This document shows, piece after piece, positions 19,483 through 26,991 of a stretch of 64,000 nt of DNA (its first letter is position 1; each line of letters starts with the position of its first letter). The stretch lies in NCBI RefSeq assembly GCF_000613865.1, contig NZ_BAJU01000010.1, positions 1 to 64,000 on the forward strand. Direction: 5' to 3'. The position numbers and the translations under genes are program-made. A model generated the notes under the pieces. The model was not told where the DNA came from. It saw only the letters and a program-made list of their open reading frames with translations, and made no database searches. This DNA is from Acetobacter okinawensis JCM 25146 (GTDB lineage: Bacteria; Pseudomonadota; Alphaproteobacteria; Acetobacterales; Acetobacteraceae).

Positions 19483-20484
19483 ATGACTATTCGATTACAG
19501 TACTGTGACCATTATAAAACAGAATGGGTCACACGCTTTGCCCCCAGCCCCACGGGGGCGTTGCATCTGGGCCATGTGGCATCCGCCCTGTTCGGCTGGA
19601 CCCTCGCCCAGCCTTCAGGGCAATGGCTGGTGCGGATGGAAGATATAGACCCCCAGCGTTGCAAACCTGCCTTTGCTGCCGCTATTTTGGATGATCTGGC
19701 ATGGCTGGGTCTGCTGCCCGATGGGCCGGTGCTTTACCAGTCTGCCCGCATGGTGGTCTATGGCCATGTGCTTGATAAGCTGGAACGCATGGGGGTGCTA
19801 TACCCCTGCTTTTGCACCAGATCGGACATTGCGCGTGAGAGTGCTGCCATGTTCTCCGCCCCGCATACCGCGCCCGATGGCTCGGTGCTCTACCCCGGCC
19901 GGTGCCGCACGCTTGGAGCCGCGGAGCGGGCGCGGCGGATGGAGGCGGGGCAGCCCTATGTGCTGCGGCTGGATATGGCGCGTGCCATGGCCCGTGCCAG
20001 AGAATGTACCATATCCCCCGTAGGTAGAAGTGGGGCGGATGATGGCGCGGGTGCCAGCGGGCAAGGGGCTGCCCGTGGGGCTGTAGCAGGCGCCACATGG
20101 CCGCTGACCTACCATGACCTGAATACTGGCCCGGTCCCCTGTCAGCCCGAACTGTTTGGAGATGTGGTGCTCGCCCGGCGCGACGTTCCCGCATCCTACC
20201 ACCTGTGCGTGACATGTGATGATGCCGCTCAGGGGGTTACACTGGTAACACGGGGGGAGGACCTGCGCCCTGCAACCAGTCTGCACCGGCTGTTGCAGAC
20301 CCTTATGGGCTGGCCAGCGCCGCATTATGCGTTCCACCCCCTGCTATGCAATGCGGAAGGCCGCCGCCTTGCCAAGCGCGATGGTGCCCTTGCCGTAAGT
20401 GCTATGCGCGAGAGTGGAATGAGTGCGGAGCAGGTGCGTAACAAGGCCATGTTTGCGGCCATGCCACAGGTGAGCGCACCATAG
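19483..20484 (+). CDS. gluQ: Glutamyl-Q tRNA(Asp) synthetase
   Basis: A 333-residue GluRS paralogue without the anticodon-binding domain. It attaches glutamate to queuosine in tRNA-Asp. Motifs: RFAPSPTGALHLGH (HIGH-class signature), the zinc cluster beginning YPCFCT with a downstream Cys in GRCR, and the KMSKS-equivalent RLAKRDGA. The 160 bases between it and the divergent HNH gene contain no recognisable gene. An insertion around residues 180-205 (GRSGADDGAGASGQGAARG) is low-complexity and looks like a variable loop. Confidence 0.92.
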   Translation: MTIRLQYCDHYKTEWVTRFAPSPTGALHLGHVASALFGWTLAQPSGQWLVRMEDIDPQRCKPAFAAAILDDLAWLGLLPDGPVLYQSARMVVYGHVLDKLERMGVLYPCFCTRSDIARESAAMFSAPHTAPDGSVLYPGRCRTLGAAERARRMEAGQPYVLRLDMARAMARARECTISPVGRSGADDGAGASGQGAARGAVAGATWPLTYHDLNTGPVPCQPELFGDVVLARRDVPASYHLCVTCDDAAQGVTLVTRGEDLRPATSLHRLLQTLMGWPAPHYAFHPLLCNAEGRRLAKRDGALAVSAMRESGMSAEQVRNKAMFAAMPQVSAP

Positions 20485-20695
20485 GCAACGCCAGCCCTGT
20501 GCCCATGACCTGCGTTTTTGCATGACAGGGAATGGGCCGGCGCAGAACAAAAAAAACAGAACAGGTGGAATCTCCGGTTCCGCCTTGGCCGGAAGAGGAT
20601 TACTGTGCGCGCCGTAGCAGTGTATCCGCGCCGCAGGATGGGCTTTTTGGCCTGCCCGGGTGGTGGGGGTGTTTGAATATTGTGTCGGAAAGTAA

Positions 20696-21904
<1,209 letters not shown>

Positions 21905-21907
21905 GCC

Positions 21908-23113
21908 ATGCCACGGAGTTTTGCACGCCGTCTGGACGGTCTGCCCGCCCCCGCAACCATAGAAATGGCACGGCGCGCCCGTGCTCTTCGGGCGGAAGGC
22001 AGGCCGGTTATCTCCCTCGCACTGGGGGAGCCGGATTTTGCTACGCCTCCCGCTGTGGTGGAGGCCGCGTATAAGGCCGCGCGGGACGGGCAGACCAAAT
22101 ACCCGCCCGTGGATGGCACGCCCGCGCTCAAGGCTGCCATTGCCCGCAAGTTCGTGCGTGAGAGCGGGCTGGAGTACACGCCTGAGCAGATCATGGTCTC
22201 CAACGGCGGCAAGCAGGTCATCTTCAACGCCTTTATGGCGACCCTGAACCCGGGGGATGAGGTGGTGGTGCCAACGCCCTACTGGGTCAGCTATCCCCTT
22301 ATTGCCCGCATGTTCGGGGCAACGCCGGTCTTTGCTCCATGCAGGGAGGAGGACGGGTTCCGGCTCCGGGCAGACGTGCTGGCGCAGGCGCTAACACCCC
22401 GCACACGCTGGGTTGTGCTGAATTTTCCCAACAACCCTACCGGAGCTATCTGCCCGGCCAAGGATATGGCGGAGATAGCCGAGGTTTTGCGCGCATACCC
22501 CGATGTCTGGATTTTGTCGGACGAGATCTATGAGCATCTGGTGTTTGATGGGGGGCGTTCTGCCTCCATCGCGGCTGTAGCGCCAGACCTCAAGGAGCGC
22601 ACCATTACGCTTAATGGTGTCTCCAAGGCCTATGCCATGACTGGCTGGCGTGTGGGGTTTGCCGGTGGTCCGGCGGACCTTATTGGTGCCATGCGGGGTG
22701 TGCAGGGGAATGCAACATCAGGTGTGTGCACCATTGCACAGGCCGCGGCTGCGGCTGCACTGGATGGACCGCCAGACCTTGTAGCCACAATGGTGGAGAC
22801 ATACAGCCGCAGGCGGAGTGCTGTGGTGGAGGCCCTGCGCGCGGTGCCGGGCCTGACCTGCGCCATGCCAGAGGGCGCGTTTTATGCCTATCCCGGTGTG
22901 GCGGCCTGTCTGGGGCGTACATCAGCAGGTGGGCAGCGGATAGAAACTGACCACGACTTTGCCACCGCCCTGCTGGAGGAGGAGTTCGTGGCGACTGTGC
23001 CAGGTTCCGCCTTTGGGCAGTCCCCTTACCTGCGTCTGTCCTGCGCAACATCGGATGATGTGCTGGCCGAGGCCTGCACGCGTATGGCGCGGTTTGTAAG
23101 CGGGTTAAAATAG
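21908..23113 (+). CDS. Class I/II pyridoxal-phosphate aminotransferase (tandem copy 2)
   Basis: A 401-residue paralogue of the preceding gene, with the same landmarks: LALGEPDFATPP, NFPNNPTGAICP, and the PLP lysine in [19 protein letters not shown]. The two genes are separated by three bases and must be co-transcribed. They have diverged throughout, so the duplication is not recent. Substrate-loop residues differ ([14 protein letters not shown] in copy 1 against YWVSYPLIARMFG here), which suggests different substrates. Confidence 0.9.
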   Translation: MPRSFARRLDGLPAPATIEMARRARALRAEGRPVISLALGEPDFATPPAVVEAAYKAARDGQTKYPPVDGTPALKAAIARKFVRESGLEYTPEQIMVSNGGKQVIFNAFMATLNPGDEVVVPTPYWVSYPLIARMFGATPVFAPCREEDGFRLRADVLAQALTPRTRWVVLNFPNNPTGAICPAKDMAEIAEVLRAYPDVWILSDEIYEHLVFDGGRSASIAAVAPDLKERTITLNGVSKAYAMTGWRVGFAGGPADLIGAMRGVQGNATSGVCTIAQAAAAAALDGPPDLVATMVETYSRRRSAVVEALRAVPGLTCAMPEGAFYAYPGVAACLGRTSAGGQRIETDHDFATALLEEEFVATVPGSAFGQSPYLRLSCATSDDVLAEACTRMARFVSGLK

Positions 23114-23159
23114 GGGTTTATATACTGGGAGCCATAACTATCTGATAAGCAGAGTTTTT

Positions 23160-23600
23160 ATGTTGTGCCGCCTCTTCGTGGAGATCATGAGGCGGTCCTT
23201 CATCAACTTGGACTTTATCGAAGCAAGTTATCAGGCTTACGACCTTTGTGAGGTCACCCAACTGATCAATACCTTTTTGGGTGCCTTCATTCATCCTTTT
23301 GAAAAATCGGCCAAAGGGAAGGAATTCATCAGGCACTTCAGAGAAAAACCCCCTCCGATACCCTTTGAATCTGAGGCGGCGGGGACTCTCAATTATCTAG
23401 AATTCATCTATTTTGTAAGACATGCCTTGGCTCATGGCGATGTGCATTACAACCCTAATAAGATCAAACAAATCGAATCAATTACTCTTTGGAATGCGAA
23501 GCACAAGGAAAAACCGATCAGGATTACCGTATCCATACAAGATATGAGATGTCTTTTATTTGATTTCAAAAAGTGCTTTGATCAGATTTATAAAATATAG
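23160..23600 (+). CDS. HEPN-domain protein, putative ribonuclease
   Basis: The 146-residue all-alpha protein contains FVRHALAHGD, which fits the HEPN catalytic motif R-x4-6-H (R87 and H92). HEPN proteins are typically metal-independent RNases of toxin-antitoxin and phage-defence systems. Base composition is clearly more AT-rich than the aminotransferase genes before it, which suggests transfer. The start at 23160 is the first ATG; 23187 (MRRSFINLDF) is an alternative. No nucleotidyltransferase (MNT) partner is adjacent. The structured RNA and small ORFs described below follow within 100 bases. Confidence 0.6.
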   Translation: MLCRLFVEIMRRSFINLDFIEASYQAYDLCEVTQLINTFLGAFIHPFEKSAKGKEFIRHFREKPPPIPFESEAAGTLNYLEFIYFVRHALAHGDVHYNPNKIKQIESITLWNAKHKEKPIRITVSIQDMRCLLFDFKKCFDQIYKI

Positions 23601-23695
23601 TCTGATTAAAACAAGAAAATGTATTTCAATGTTTTTTCGTAATCAGGAAAAACATTGCTGAAAAACCTGTTTTCCCATACGTTGGGAACCGGCGT

Positions 23696-23853
23696 GTCGT
23701 AGCGCCTTTTCACTCGAGGTCGCCCCCTATGTCGGGTGGCCTGCCTAATGCAACACCCGGCTTTCGAGCCAAGGCGGTGAATGGGGGCACTCATTCCATC
23801 GCCCAAGGGAAATAAGCAGGGCGTGCCTATACCTCGTGTGAACACGCTACGAC
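23696..23853 (+). ncRNA. Structured RNA, candidate C4-like antisense or attenuator RNA
   Basis: Five helices nest here. GTCGTAGCG (23696-23704) pairs with CGCTACGAC (23845-23853), and CACTCGAGGT (23711-23720) pairs with ACCTCGTGTG (23831-23840, one mismatch). CGCCC (23721-23725) pairs with GGGCG (23819-23823), and CGGGTG (23733-23738) with CACCCG (23754-23759). GGCGGTGAATG (23773-23783) pairs with CATTCCATCGCC (23792-23803, one bulge). The 3' arm is also complementary to 23895-23917, which overlaps the ribosome binding site of the next ORF. This is the logic of phage C4 antisense RNAs that repress translation of a short ORF before the antirepressor gene. A weak promoter-like TTGCTG (23655) with 17-base spacing lies upstream. 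Family identity is unproven. Confidence 0.55.
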
Positions 23854-23894
23854 CCGCCCGACGCCAGGGATGACGTTGATGCTTAATATTGCTC

Positions 23895-23929
23895 GTCGTA
23901 GGGCAAAAACACGAGGTCAATCAGTTATG
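23895..23929 (+). promoter_or_regulatory. Target site of the structured RNA overlapping a ribosome binding site
   Basis: ACACGAGGT (23909-23917) is the exact complement of ACCTCGTGT (23831-23839), and GTCGTAG (23895-23901) is the exact complement of CTACGAC (23847-23853). The same seven-base spacing applies on both sides. GAGG at 23913-23916 is a Shine-Dalgarno sequence ten bases before the ATG at 23927. Pairing would therefore mask translation initiation. Confidence 0.6.
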
Positions 23930-24007
23930 AGAGATTTTTTATTAAAAATATTACCTAAAATAGGTATCCTTCATAATAGAAAGGAACCTGTCTCCCGTTT
24001 TCAGTAG
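23927..24007 (+). CDS. 26-codon ORF, possible leader peptide
   Basis: ATG at 23927 opens a 26-residue basic, hydrophobic peptide (MRDFLLKILPKIGILHNRK and seven more residues). It ends with TAG at 24005-24007. The stop overlaps AGGTG, the Shine-Dalgarno of the next ORF, so translating this peptide would bring ribosomes to that start. The position between an RNA target site and a coupled gene resembles the short icd frame of phage P1, though no sequence similarity is claimed. It may act only through its translation. Confidence 0.45.
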   Translation: MRDFLLKILPKIGILHNRKEPVSRFQ

Positions 24008-24012
24008 GTGAT

Positions 24013-24219
24013 ATGGTTCGCGTCTATACCGGCTGGCCCAGAAACTACGATCTTGATTTCGTTGGAGAGATTGAGGATATTAGAACTGATATTGTTCCTG
24101 AAGATGAAGGACTTCCTTATCGGGAACAGCATCGGTTTGGGATCAAACTGCCCCATGCTGGAATATATTATTTCAGCGAAGCCGAAATAAAGAAAACACA
24201 TCACGCCAGACGGAAGTGA
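24013..24219 (+). CDS. Small uncharacterised protein
   Basis: The 68-residue protein MVRVYTGWPRNYDLDFVGEI... is acidic in the middle and basic at the C-terminus (EAEIKKTHHARRK). AGGTGAT precedes the ATG at suitable spacing, which supports real translation. No signal peptide or membrane segment is visible and no family is recognised. It follows the structured RNA and the 26-codon ORF and ends just before a 13-base-pair inverted repeat. It is thus the likely output gene of this small unit. Confidence 0.55.
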   Translation: MVRVYTGWPRNYDLDFVGEIEDIRTDIVPEDEGLPYREQHRFGIKLPHAGIYYFSEAEIKKTHHARRK

Positions 24220-24238
24220 ATTCCATCACATAAAGTTA

Positions 24239-24278
24239 AATGTGGTAGGTTGTGTTACGCAATATAACCTACCACATT
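24239..24278. terminator. 13-base perfect inverted repeat closing the islet
   Basis: AATGTGGTAGGTT (24239-24251) is perfectly complementary to AACCTACCACATT (24266-24278), with a 14-base loop. It follows the 68-codon gene and would terminate transcription or mark the islet boundary. No T tract follows. Confidence 0.55.
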
Positions 24279-24327
24279 GCAGAATAATTCAAGAAGCTGA
24301 ATGTAATTCAGGTTTTTTGTCGTTCTC

Positions 24328-25338
24328 TTGTTTTTCTGCGTATACCACTCCATAAAACAAGACCTCGCCAGAATACAAACAGGTCCGCCGCCGCCAGACA
24401 AGCCCGGACCGGGAGCACCAGACTTGCCTGACCAGTCCCTGCCTGCGCGGGAAAAAATAGCGTTCCGTACCTTCTCGCGCGAGGAATGGGCGCTGGTTAG
24501 CATTACCGTCCTGTGGGGTGTTACGTTTCTGGTCGTGCATACGGCCATGCGCTATACGGGGGCGATGTTTTTTGTAGGGCTACGTTTTACCACGGCGGCC
24601 CTGCTCTCCATGCTGTTGTTCCGCAGGTTGTTACTGGACCTGACCTTGCGTGAGATACGTGCGGGGGCCTGTGTGGGGGTGGCCATTTTTTTTGGCTATG
24701 CCCTGCAAACTGTTGGGCTGGGGAGTATTTCCAGCAGTCAGTCCGCTTTTATTACAGCTATGTATGTGCCTGTGGTGCCGTTTTTGCAGTGGTTTTTCTT
24801 CCGCAAACCGCCGCACCTTATGGTCTGGCTTGGGGTGCTGTTTGCTTTTTGTGGTCTGGTGCTGCTGACCGGGCCACAGGCCATAACCCATCTGCGCCTC
24901 CAGTTTGGTGAGGTCATTACCCTTGTCAGCACCATTGCCATTGCCATGGAGGTTGTGCTGATCAGCCGCTTTGCTTCCCCCGCCATCAATAGCTTTCGGG
25001 TCGCTATTGTGCAGTTGTTTGTGGCTGGGCTTCTGGCTTTTGCGGCCATGCCCGTCATGGGCGAGCATGTGCCAGCCTTTGCGTGGTGGTGGGCTGTGCC
25101 CGCTTTGGGTCTTGGGGTCATGAGTGCTGTGATCCAGCTGGTTATGAACTGGGCACAAAAAACGGTCTCGCCCACGCGGGCCACACTCATTTACGCGGGG
25201 GAGCCTGTGTGGGCGGGCCTTGTGGGGCATTTGGCAGGGGATGCCCTGCCTTTGCGCGCAGTGCTCGGTGGCGGCATGGTTATTCTGGGCGTGTTAACCA
25301 GTGAGGTGCGTTTGCCGCGCAAACGCGTGCGGGAGTGA
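24328..25338 (+). CDS. EamA/DMT-family transporter
   Basis: An inner-membrane protein with ten predicted hydrophobic segments from WALVSITVLWGVTFLVVH to AVLGGGMVILGVLTSEV. It contains two EamA repeats; the second ends in RATLIYAGEPVWAGLVGHLAG, the characteristic EamA C-terminal block. The family exports metabolites such as amino acids. The frame is open from 24328 (TTG), which gives 336 residues, but no Shine-Dalgarno precedes it. The Pro-rich first 50 residues (TGPPPPDKPGPGAP) are unusual, so the true start is uncertain. Confidence 0.82.
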   Translation: MFFCVYHSIKQDLARIQTGPPPPDKPGPGAPDLPDQSLPAREKIAFRTFSREEWALVSITVLWGVTFLVVHTAMRYTGAMFFVGLRFTTAALLSMLLFRRLLLDLTLREIRAGACVGVAIFFGYALQTVGLGSISSSQSAFITAMYVPVVPFLQWFFFRKPPHLMVWLGVLFAFCGLVLLTGPQAITHLRLQFGEVITLVSTIAIAMEVVLISRFASPAINSFRVAIVQLFVAGLLAFAAMPVMGEHVPAFAWWWAVPALGLGVMSAVIQLVMNWAQKTVSPTRATLIYAGEPVWAGLVGHLAGDALPLRAVLGGGMVILGVLTSEVRLPRKRVRE

Positions 25339-25415
25339 GCACTTGCTGCCCTGCCTGTTCTGGTAAGGCTGGGGCTGTTTGCAGGTGGCTTTGGGCCAGA
25401 GTATGTGGGGGACGG

Positions 25416-26452
25416 TTATTCGTGTAGGACGTTCAGCGTATAATGCCGTGCAAGGGCTGCTGAATCCTCCCCATCGGCCAGCATGCCCACAAGCTGGAGT
25501 TCATCGCAGTACTGGGCAATTTGCTCACGTAGGCCGTGCCCCAGAAGGGGGCGGATGACTGGCTCGTTACGCAACATATTGCGTGCGCTCGCAGCAGGCA
25601 GGTCTGCTGCATTATCGGCTATAAGGGTGGCGGCATCATCGCGGTGGGTGTTGACCCATAGGGCGGCATCGCGCAGGGCCAGCACTAGGGCGGTCGCCGC
25701 GGTGGGGTCGGCCTCGTGCGCTGTGTCTGCAACACCCAGAATAAGGCTGGTGCGCGCGGCGTAATGCCCCGTATCGCTCCCCACCAGTTCGTACAAAAGG
25801 TCGGGGTTGTTCTGGAGCAGGTCCATGCATCGGGGTCGTGGGTCACAACGGCGTCTATTTTCTGGTCATGGAGGGCCTGCTCAATCTGCTGGATAGGCAG
25901 GTCAATCCAGTTGATGTGGTTGAGCGCATCCATGCCTTTACGGCGCATCATGATACAGAAGAACAGCTTGTCGGCGGCATTCTGGTCGGGCACGGCAACA
26001 TTACGGCCCATGAGCTGGTCCAGCCGGGTAATGCCGCTGCTACGCCGGACCAGCAGGCGGCGGCTGCCCGACTGCACGCCCATGATCAGACGTGCAGGCA
26101 GGCCAGCATGCAGGCGTTGCAGCCAGGTCAGGGCCGGGGCCAGAGCATAGGCGGTTTTTTGCTGCACCAGAGCTTCCAGTGCATCCTGCCCATTATGAAT
26201 ATCGGGCAGGGGGTCCACGTCCAGATTGTACTGGGCAAAAAAACTCTTCTCCTGAGCAGCCGCGAGCACGGGCGACATCGCTGCTTCGGGCCATGCGATT
26301 TTGAGCTTGCGGTACACACCATCGGGCTGCTTGCGGGGCGTACGGGGGCGGGAGTGGTGCGTAAGCACGACCACGCCACCCATGGCGGCGCAACCTCCGG
26401 CCCCCCACAGCAGGGCACGGCGGGAGATGGGGGAGGGGGCAGGTGTGCTCAT
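25416..26452 (-). CDS. ABC transporter substrate-binding protein, SsuA/NMT1-like (frameshift)
   Basis: A protein of about 345 residues. The N-terminus is SRRALLWGAGGCAAMGGVVVL, a twin-Arg-like signal with an Ala/Gly core. The body matches periplasmic binding proteins of the nitrate/sulfonate/taurine group (LKIAWPEAAMSPVLAAAQEKSF, LDVDPLPDIHNGQDALEALV, GRNVAVPDQNAADKL). One base is missing near 25826 (GCCATGGAC read as GCATGGAC), which splits DAVVTHDPDAMDLLQ. No permease or ATPase gene is adjacent, so it may use a remote system. It is convergent with the EamA gene. Confidence 0.78.
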
Positions 26453-26527
26453 GCCTCTTACTTACACTGTGTTGGCCGGGGTGTCCCCGTTATGTGGGGA
26501 GAAAATGAAAAAATCCCAATCACTGTG

Positions 26528-26991
26528 TCAGGGCGTAAAAGAGGGGTGTTCCGTGTGGCCCGTGTTCTGTCTGATGCGTGTGGACAGGATGATGGATGAC
26601 TGTGTGCGCTGCACGCCATCCAATGCACCAATGCTGTCTATGATCGTGTTCAGCATTTCCATATTGGGGGCGGCGATAAGGGCGATCATGTCCATTTTTC
26701 CGCTCACGGCATAAAGTTCGAGCACGCCGCGTTGCTGCCTGAGCTGGTTTTCTACTGCAGCGTATGTGTGCGGGCTGGCGGCAATCATGACATGCGCACG
26801 GATGGAGAGGTCGGCATCGGGGGCGAGTGTTACGGTGTAGCCTGAATAATGCCTCTGCGTTCCAGCCGTTCAATGCGGCTTTGCACGGTGGTACGGGACA
26901 GGCCCAGTTTTTTGGACAGGGCAACGGTGCTTATGCGTGCGTTGGTACTTAAAAGCGCCAAAAGGGCACGGTCTGTTTCATCCAGTTTCAT
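26528..26991 (-). CDS. Lrp/AsnC-family transcriptional regulator (frameshift)
   Basis: About 154 residues after repair. The N-terminal helix-turn-helix (MKLDETDRALLALLSTNARI, then VALSKKLGLSRTTVQSRIER) runs from ATG 26991. The C-terminal RAM ligand domain (MIAASPHTYAAVENQL, SGKMDMIALIAAPNMEMLN) is one base out of frame. A G is missing near 26841 (CAGGGCTAC read as CAGGCTAC), which breaks the conserved GIIQGYTV. Lrp-type regulators respond to amino acids. The gene is divergent from the aminotransferase that opens the amino-acid locus, so local control is plausible. Confidence 0.85.

Follow-up and report, generated by a model that had tools for sequence, protein, structure and literature searches.

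The RNA encoded at positions 23731..23868 of the window, the 64,000-nucleotide stretch of Acetobacter okinawensis JCM 25146 analysed here (contig NZ_BAJU01000010.1), appears to work like the C4 RNA of phages P1 and P7, is no member of the Rfam C4 family (RF01695) and is a divergent relative of sRNA-Xcc1 (RF02221). It probably represses, as a C4-type antisense RNA, an accessory operon consisting of a leader and a protein gene, with an upstream segment pair (a1/b1) as the competitor. In phage P1/P7, the a′ and b′ segments of C4 RNA silence a short ORF upstream of the antirepressor, and the role of C4 is in superinfection immunity.

A putative two-block antisense target precedes two small ORFs

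The following features were assigned at the locus; R1 denotes a covariance model built from Acetobacter copies alone.

23655..23683, + strand: putative promoter (TTGCTG, 17 nt, TACGTT), a reading of the sequence with weak hexamers
23691..23706, + strand: a1 hairpin with loop GTCGTA (fold, −8.5 kcal/mol); a1 pairs with the RNA's own a′
23711..23720, + strand: b1 segment CACTCGAGGT, 6 contiguous pairs in the window copy
23731..23868, + strand: RNA core with helices P1, P2 and P3 around a three-way junction (R1 match at 23728-23868, 120.1 bits)
23731..23739, + strand: 5′ strand of helix P1, GTCGGGTGG, pairing with 23854-23862
23740..23820, + strand: helix P2 (CCTGC/GCAGG) with a conserved internal loop and two extra hairpins (alignment, fold)
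23821..23847, + strand: P3 hairpin (GCGTG/CACGC) with b′ in its loop; both-side changes in 3 of 5 pairs
23831..23839, + strand: b′ antisense block ACCTCGTGT (sequence; own-arm matching)
23847..23853, + strand: a′ antisense block CTACGAC in the junction; its first C pairs in P3 too
23854..23866, + strand: 3′ strand of helix P1, CCGCCCGAC, then GCCA, which follows helix P1 in 51 of 69 distinct copies
23889..23906, + strand: a2 hairpin with loop GTCGTA (a2 block 23895-23901; fold, −6.7 kcal/mol)
23909..23917, + strand: b2 target ACACGAGGT over the ribosome binding site (pairing, fold)
23927..24007, + strand: 26-aa leader ORF MRDFLLKILPKIGILHNRKEPVSRFQ (ORF reading)
24013..24219, + strand: 68-aa ORF (MVRVYTGWPRNYDLDFVG...), its start codon five bases past the leader stop

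A generic sigma-70 scan listed no promoter at 23655..23683. In the 3′ arm of the RNA, b′ forms 9/9 pairs with b2 and a′ forms 7/7 pairs with a2, and the blocks are 7 nt apart both in this arm and in the downstream site. An earlier note, made from the letters of this DNA, had described this complementarity to 23895-23917 (9 and 7 bp, equal spacing), and it is exact in the sequence as well as in a pattern search of the assembly. The GAGG that the note had placed before an ATG within the downstream site is found at 23913-23916, the ATG (23927-23929) being the start of the 26-aa ORF. Pairing of the same 3′ blocks with an upstream arm at 23696-23720, also claimed there, was likewise confirmed: the a1 block lies at 23696-23702, with pairing to a′ extending over 9 bp (to 23704), and b1 at 23715-23720 provides merely a 6-bp contiguous match to b′ in the window copy.

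The pattern GTCGTAG-N{2,30}-CGAGGT has three exact sites in the 3.16-Mb assembly, 23696-23720 (+), 23831-23853 (−) and 23895-23917 (+), the minus-strand site being the partner common to the 5′ arm and the downstream site; at this stringency, no further site exists in the assembly. Because the backward control pattern occurs six times in the same assembly, the pattern count by itself is no evidence. The bipartite site of the window scored 41.0, compared with 33.5 for the best of 45 arm sets taken from other copies (0/45 reach 41.0), and folding of the region gave z = −4.31, with 0 of 200 shuffles as good.

Beyond the 68-aa ORF, positions 24223-24297 form a long inverted repeat (ATGTGGTAGGTT...AACCTACCACAT), which lacks a T run but may mark the end of the operon. 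Directly 5′ of the RNA lies a 146-aa ORF (23160-23600) that matches the HEPN family pEK499_p136 below its threshold (24.2 bits; cut-off 26.6). This HEPN-like ORF was set aside as a component of the system; judged by eye, it was seen next to just the window copy and its A. syzygii counterpart.

The core is a three-way junction with covarying helices

Folded without constraint, the core region (23731-23870) adopts the P1/P2/P3 topology of C4 (−56.5 kcal/mol), b′ being placed in the P3 loop and a′ in the junction, and helix P2 carrying two extra hairpins; the core is 138 nt long. Comparison of homologues, which the earlier note had called for, bears out these helices. Among 18 distinct Acetobacter copies (from 25 loci), 95.3% of the helix cells are paired versus 91.8% in shuffled alignments, 23 cells have changed on both sides versus 6.6, and the covariation score of the core is 0.225 versus 0.158. 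In slid controls, the paired cells drop to 31-51%. Double changes affect seven pairs, a number reached by 11 of 500 shuffles; extra pair types are not raised in the core alignment (477 of 500 shuffles reach the count). Helix P1 is paired in 100% of cells across the 18 sequences, one of its pairs having changed on both sides. The P2 internal loop, which resembles that of the RF02221 consensus, is unpaired yet strongly conserved.

Arms and target change in concert across copies

R1 has 83 matches in total, the window included, of which 69 distinct copies were used for comparing arms after partial, flank-short and identical rows had been removed. In these copies, a′ and b′ match their own 5′ arm far better than those of other copies (17.6 vs 10.3 and 21.7 vs 13.5, respectively), and they also match their own downstream stretch better (12.8 vs 10.7 and 15.3 vs 13.2). 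In each of the four tests, 0 of 5000 permutations reached the observed mean; as the copies are related by descent, these counts are not independent probabilities. The earlier note had named uncompensated arm changes as evidence against its reading. Compensation is clear at the 5′ arm, where the effect is large, and small on average downstream, where a strong site (a2, then b2, then a start codon; score of at least 28, a cut-off chosen after the list was seen) is present in 23 of the 69 copies and missing from 46. Seventeen copies beat every swapped arm set, 14 of them among the 23 with a strong site.

The 69 copies carry 49 arm sets, and the a′ classes matched downstream correspond to the sites GTCGTAG, TTGGCAG, TTGGTCG and TCGCAG; three natural classes of the block are CTACGAC, CTGCCAA and CGACCAA. 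The copy of Novacetimonas hansenii is a chimera that combines a class-1 a′ with a class-2 b′, and both its 5′ arm and its downstream site agree with this combination. The operon of leader and 68-aa gene is found under three different arm specificities. Upstream of the RNA, a TANNNT motif starts 10-21 nt before a1 in 57 of 65 upstream regions (the 69 copies less those with a weak 5′ arm or an identical upstream), compared with 7 of 65 at 30-41 nt; at 16-18 nt, 44 counts were obtained over the 65 upstreams. This near-fixed distance indicates that transcription probably begins near the a1 hairpin.

Relationship to C4 and sRNA-Xcc1

The order promoter-a1-b1-RNA-a2-b2/RBS-small ORF-second ORF is that annotated for c4-icd-ant of phage P1 (P1/P7; RF01695 with c4-a1b1, RF03163), where a1, b1, a2 and b2 follow one another in the same order with the same pairing function. 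The Rfam C4 model applied to phage P1 yields a helix P1 that encloses P2 and P3, followed by a 7-nt junction; in the window RNA, P1 likewise encloses both other helices, the loop of P3 holding b′ and the junction holding a′. The likeness in layout is complete in the window and partial in the family as a whole (a2/b2 score of at least 28 in 23 of 69). Together with the three-site co-variation and the N. hansenii chimera, the layout supports what the earlier note had proposed, a C4-type antisense RNA or attenuator. In contrast to C4, helix P2 of the window RNA is expanded by the conserved internal loop and two hairpins (138 vs 77 nt), and its regulated product is no recognisable antirepressor.

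Membership in the Rfam C4 family was rejected. The Rfam search suggested in the earlier note turned out negative for C4: at E ≤ 10, positions 23100-24400 gave ten matches, and these include neither RF01695 nor RF03163. RF01695 (gathering score 45 bits) also gave no match over its cut-off in 61 genomes, whereas phage P1 itself scored 68.8 bits against it, and R1 gave no match to the phage P1 stretch. The other weak Rfam matches at 23100-24400 (mir-633, pan, RAGATH-19 and others) were taken as chance.

Positions 1-87 of RF02221, however, align at 23731-23870 (31.8 bits; E 0.0029 on 1301 bases). This is below the gathering score of 53, as is the match at another locus, L118 (36.6 bits); the model was over its cut-off in 0 of 61 genomes and 0 of 18 related sources (in which only tRNA reached an Rfam cut-off), and it matches element copies in other Acetobacter genomes at 26-34 bits. 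In the opposite direction, R1 positions 1-137 match 15 of 30 RF02221 loci at E 1.2e-7 to 0.058 (ten below 0.001; these E-values are rough). Full-length matches both ways thus place the window RNA in the sRNA-Xcc1 lineage, as a homologous branch that has an enlarged P2 and the topology of C4. Lone weak matches were not used because RF02221 at E ≤ 1 also matched 1 of 14 control genomes. Against plasmids, the RF02221 consensus had one weak match, in the record of a human pathogen.

The two groups share the internal loop, and the RF02221 loci as a set also have downstream sites matched to their own RNA; the family of the window differs by its larger P2, by other downstream genes and by scoring below the RF02221 gathering score in the loci tested. 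The set comprised 30 loci of the window's phylum (L180-L209), a subset of all RF02221 matches, from a scan that scored at most 10 candidates per genome. Own versus other downstream start regions scored 14.1 vs 11.9 for a′ and 17.9 vs 13.0 for b′, own versus other upstream regions 20.0 vs 13.0 and 18.0 vs 15.4, with 0 of 5000 permutations reaching the value in each test. Single loci beyond two standard deviations number 3, 10, 18 and 2 of 30 in the four tests; the signal is thus clear in the set as a whole, but individual loci do not all show it. Nine ORFs following RF02221 loci, chosen by eye, were assigned by Pfam to SymE (1), Bro-N (2), KilA-N (1), P22_AR_N (1), pRha (3) or no family (1). 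According to the respective papers, Xanthomonas integron cassettes carry sRNA-Xcc1 upstream of symE (PMC12444791), the RNA is a discrete 88-nt species by Northern blot and RACE (PMC2996969), and its targets have been predicted genome-wide (PMC2996969, PMC12189769). Own-matched sites, neighbours of the SymE and antirepressor type and the mapped 88-nt RNA suggest that sRNA-Xcc1 itself may work like C4 on the adjoining gene.

The Group 1 C4-like sRNAs of Acinetobacter baumannii resemble the present family in their many genomic copies and variable a′ region, but they match the Rfam C4 motif according to PMC5320573; the window family is a different sequence lineage, with cis targets visible for part of the copies. 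In the literature searched, no paper describes the window RNA in Acetobacteraceae, and none links sRNA-Xcc1 to C4-style targets, though such a link may have been reported before.

Genes downstream of the RNA

Searches of Pfam, NCBIfam and PHROGs gave no match to the 68-aa protein, which agrees with the remark in the earlier note that the usual ant gene is absent and the product would be new. Its AlphaFold2 model, from a five-row alignment, has a mean pLDDT of 53. The gene occurs in 7 of 49 Acetobacter genomes, six of which carry the RNA immediately 5′ of it; upstream of the homologue at locus L177 (genome G003), the RNA is absent even with filters off. Differences between the 68-aa homologues are concentrated at third codon positions. 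The 28-aa ORFs that occupy the position of the leader at L108, L129 and L135 show a weaker third-position bias, amino-acid-changing codon differences outnumbering silent ones.

Other copies of the RNA stand before unrelated accessory genes, whose products were assigned by Pfam to FkbM methyltransferases, GT8 and GT25 glycosyltransferases, SHOCT, TM2, BamE-like and outer-membrane proteins; 10 of 20 tested had no family at E ≤ 0.01. For the gammaproteobacterial copies (BamE-like, outer membrane), the downstream site itself is unconvincing. At L088, L122 and L133, the RNA is followed by a 52-55-aa protein family (M..KLFKAKIVLKNGSIQEV...), whose member at L122 has no Pfam or NCBIfam match, and at L088 and L122 this ORF is followed by a secreted-looking protein of 156-158 aa.

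Distribution of the RNA and its copies on mobile DNA

In a DNA search, 18 of 100 genomes were positive (own included), all in one genus of 52. A pattern scan of 84,980 species genomes returned 77 stretches, 74 of which contain R1 matches at E ≤ 0.1. Most R1 copies are from Acetobacteraceae (Acetobacter, Gluconacetobacter, Komagataeibacter, Novacetimonas, Asaia, Gluconobacter, Acidomonas, Acidocella and others); the remainder come from one Ancylobacter, from two further alphaproteobacterial bins and, at weaker scores of 32-61 bits, from metagenome bins of Gammaproteobacteria. At E ≤ 1e-4, at least 41 of 397 genomes of the window's family, own included, have one copy or more, with up to 8 candidates scored per genome. 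At five loci (L061, L068, L084, L109 and L131), two RNA copies stand in tandem, ∼400 bp apart, and L109 has a third ∼850 bp further.

Copies were found in 12 plasmid records, none of which has an annotated feature under the RNA match; on plasmid pKOB1 (L171 4458-5198), an annotated Bro-N gene lies on the opposite strand close to the RNA copy. One viral-collection contig carries the RNA, some of its ORFs being tail-gene-like by eye. At six loci (L026, L027, L090, L117, L133 and L167), the RNA has a transposase gene on one side and cargo, consisting of varied passenger genes, on the other. Inverted repeats of ∼20-69 bp enclose the whole, and in four of the six both outer edges carry TAA. The transposase at L167 belongs to the IS4/5 family (Pfam DDE_Tnp_1/DUF4096), and those of the other five loci were recognised by eye; these RNA-carrying transposons may resemble IS1031. 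Around the window copy, there are no terminal inverted repeats of 20 bp or longer. Compared with A. syzygii in 200-base steps, 23000-24999 is 94.5-99% identical and 25000-25199 is 90% identical, the other aligned steps of 20000-26599 being 74-90.5% identical. That 23000-25000 is far closer to A. syzygii than its flanks suggests a recently exchanged block.

Such mobility could mean that the RNA confers immunity to incoming relatives of the mobile element, chiefly through action in trans, and that the cis site is just one part of this; we consider that unlikely, albeit the foremost of the alternatives. In its favour are, besides the copies on plasmids, in transposons and on the viral contig, a stretch of 4.2-7.9 kb that is at least 99.8% identical across Acetobacter, Gluconacetobacter and Gluconobacter (L073, L075, L083, L093, L110 and L114), whose RNA class is without cis target and adjoins a virD4/traG-like gene (by eye), in what looks like a conjugative region; the many other copies without a cis target; and the 49 arm sets, which resemble incompatibility groups. 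The targets that trans action would require were sought with 19 arm sets in loci of up to 8 kb whose RNA copy has no cis site, and none was convincing: L087 came out 0.5 points ahead of all 45 swapped sets, L073 and L080 were each equalled by one swapped set, and the remaining arm sets by more. Also against it, 275 bases taken from the window match 0 of 50,697 phage records, and the genome of the window holds no further exact site.

Proposed mechanism

Repression of the C4 type would proceed as follows. The promoter just upstream would yield a transcript starting near the a1 hairpin, and its core would fold into the P1/P2/P3 junction, leaving a′ exposed at the junction itself and b′ in the loop of P3. 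The core is probably excised at helix P1, perhaps by RNase P, for which the GCCA after this helix is suggestive at most. Once released, the core may act both in trans, as a small RNA, and in cis, a′ and b′ pairing with a2 (in a hairpin loop) and b2 (on the ribosome binding site) and thereby blocking the 26-aa leader, and with it, through translational coupling, the 68-aa protein. The 5′ segments a1/b1 would compete for a′/b′ so that nascent transcripts stay readable until free RNA accumulates. The operon would be off in cells already holding the element and briefly on after entry or when the RNA is short.

Release of the RNA is the step on which this scheme differs from a leader acting in cis only, similar to an attenuator or riboswitch, in which the 3′ arm alternates between the 5′ arm (ON) and the ribosome binding site (OFF), with a ligand or protein that binds the conserved P2 internal loop possibly deciding between the two. 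The two pairings are indeed mutually exclusive within one transcript, the unpaired loop is strongly conserved, and each copy with a strong site precedes one gene or operon. Nevertheless, we rate this reading as rather improbable: the C4-like core fold exposes a′ and b′ instead of choosing between arms, a1/b1 are retained in copies without a cis target, and both the GCCA after helix P1 (51 of 69 copies) and the homologous sRNA-Xcc1, a discrete 88-nt RNA in PMC2996969, point to a released RNA. Against the main scheme itself, in the full transcript the fold paired with the 5′ arm (−101.1) is preferred over that paired with the target (−94.9) by ∼6 kcal/mol, the duplex energy of the 3′ arm being −39.8 and −30.1, respectively; repression in cis would thus need processing, kinetics or trans action. 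A repeat functioning at the DNA level (for recombination or as a transposon end), with the matches at the ribosome binding site as leftovers of duplication, would account for the multi-copy, mobile nature of the element and its near-palindromic arms but is very improbable, given that repetition in the window is limited to the two pairing blocks and includes neither the hairpin stems nor the intervening spacer, that TANNNT keeps a near-fixed distance, that helices and arms show compensatory changes, and that transposon ends, where seen, are ∼0.7-1.9 kb off and not at the element.

Implications

Taken as a C4-type repressor, the RNA looks like a portable off-switch for acquired genes, as far as can be judged from sequence comparison. 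Tentatively, and with rather less confidence than in the repression itself, C4, sRNA-Xcc1 and the Acetobacteraceae branch may belong to one large superfamily, for the most part unannotated, of mobile antisense RNA cassettes that can be re-targeted, a generic entry sensor for plasmids, IS5-family transposons, integrons and prophages, in which each copy would silence its own cargo or antirepressor by a private two-block code. Cargo would then be expressed only in cells without the matching RNA, and sRNA-Xcc1, which has been described as acting in trans and as linked to virulence, would control the adjoining gene in the manner of C4 and gain an immediate, testable target. C4-type control would be a portable RNA module that silences accessory genes of mobile DNA, not a peculiarity of P1-like phages, and it would come in many natural specificities, with the three sites changing together, offering natural, possibly orthogonal two-block translation switches. 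In A. okinawensis, a 68-aa protein of an unrecognised family would be kept under this type of control.
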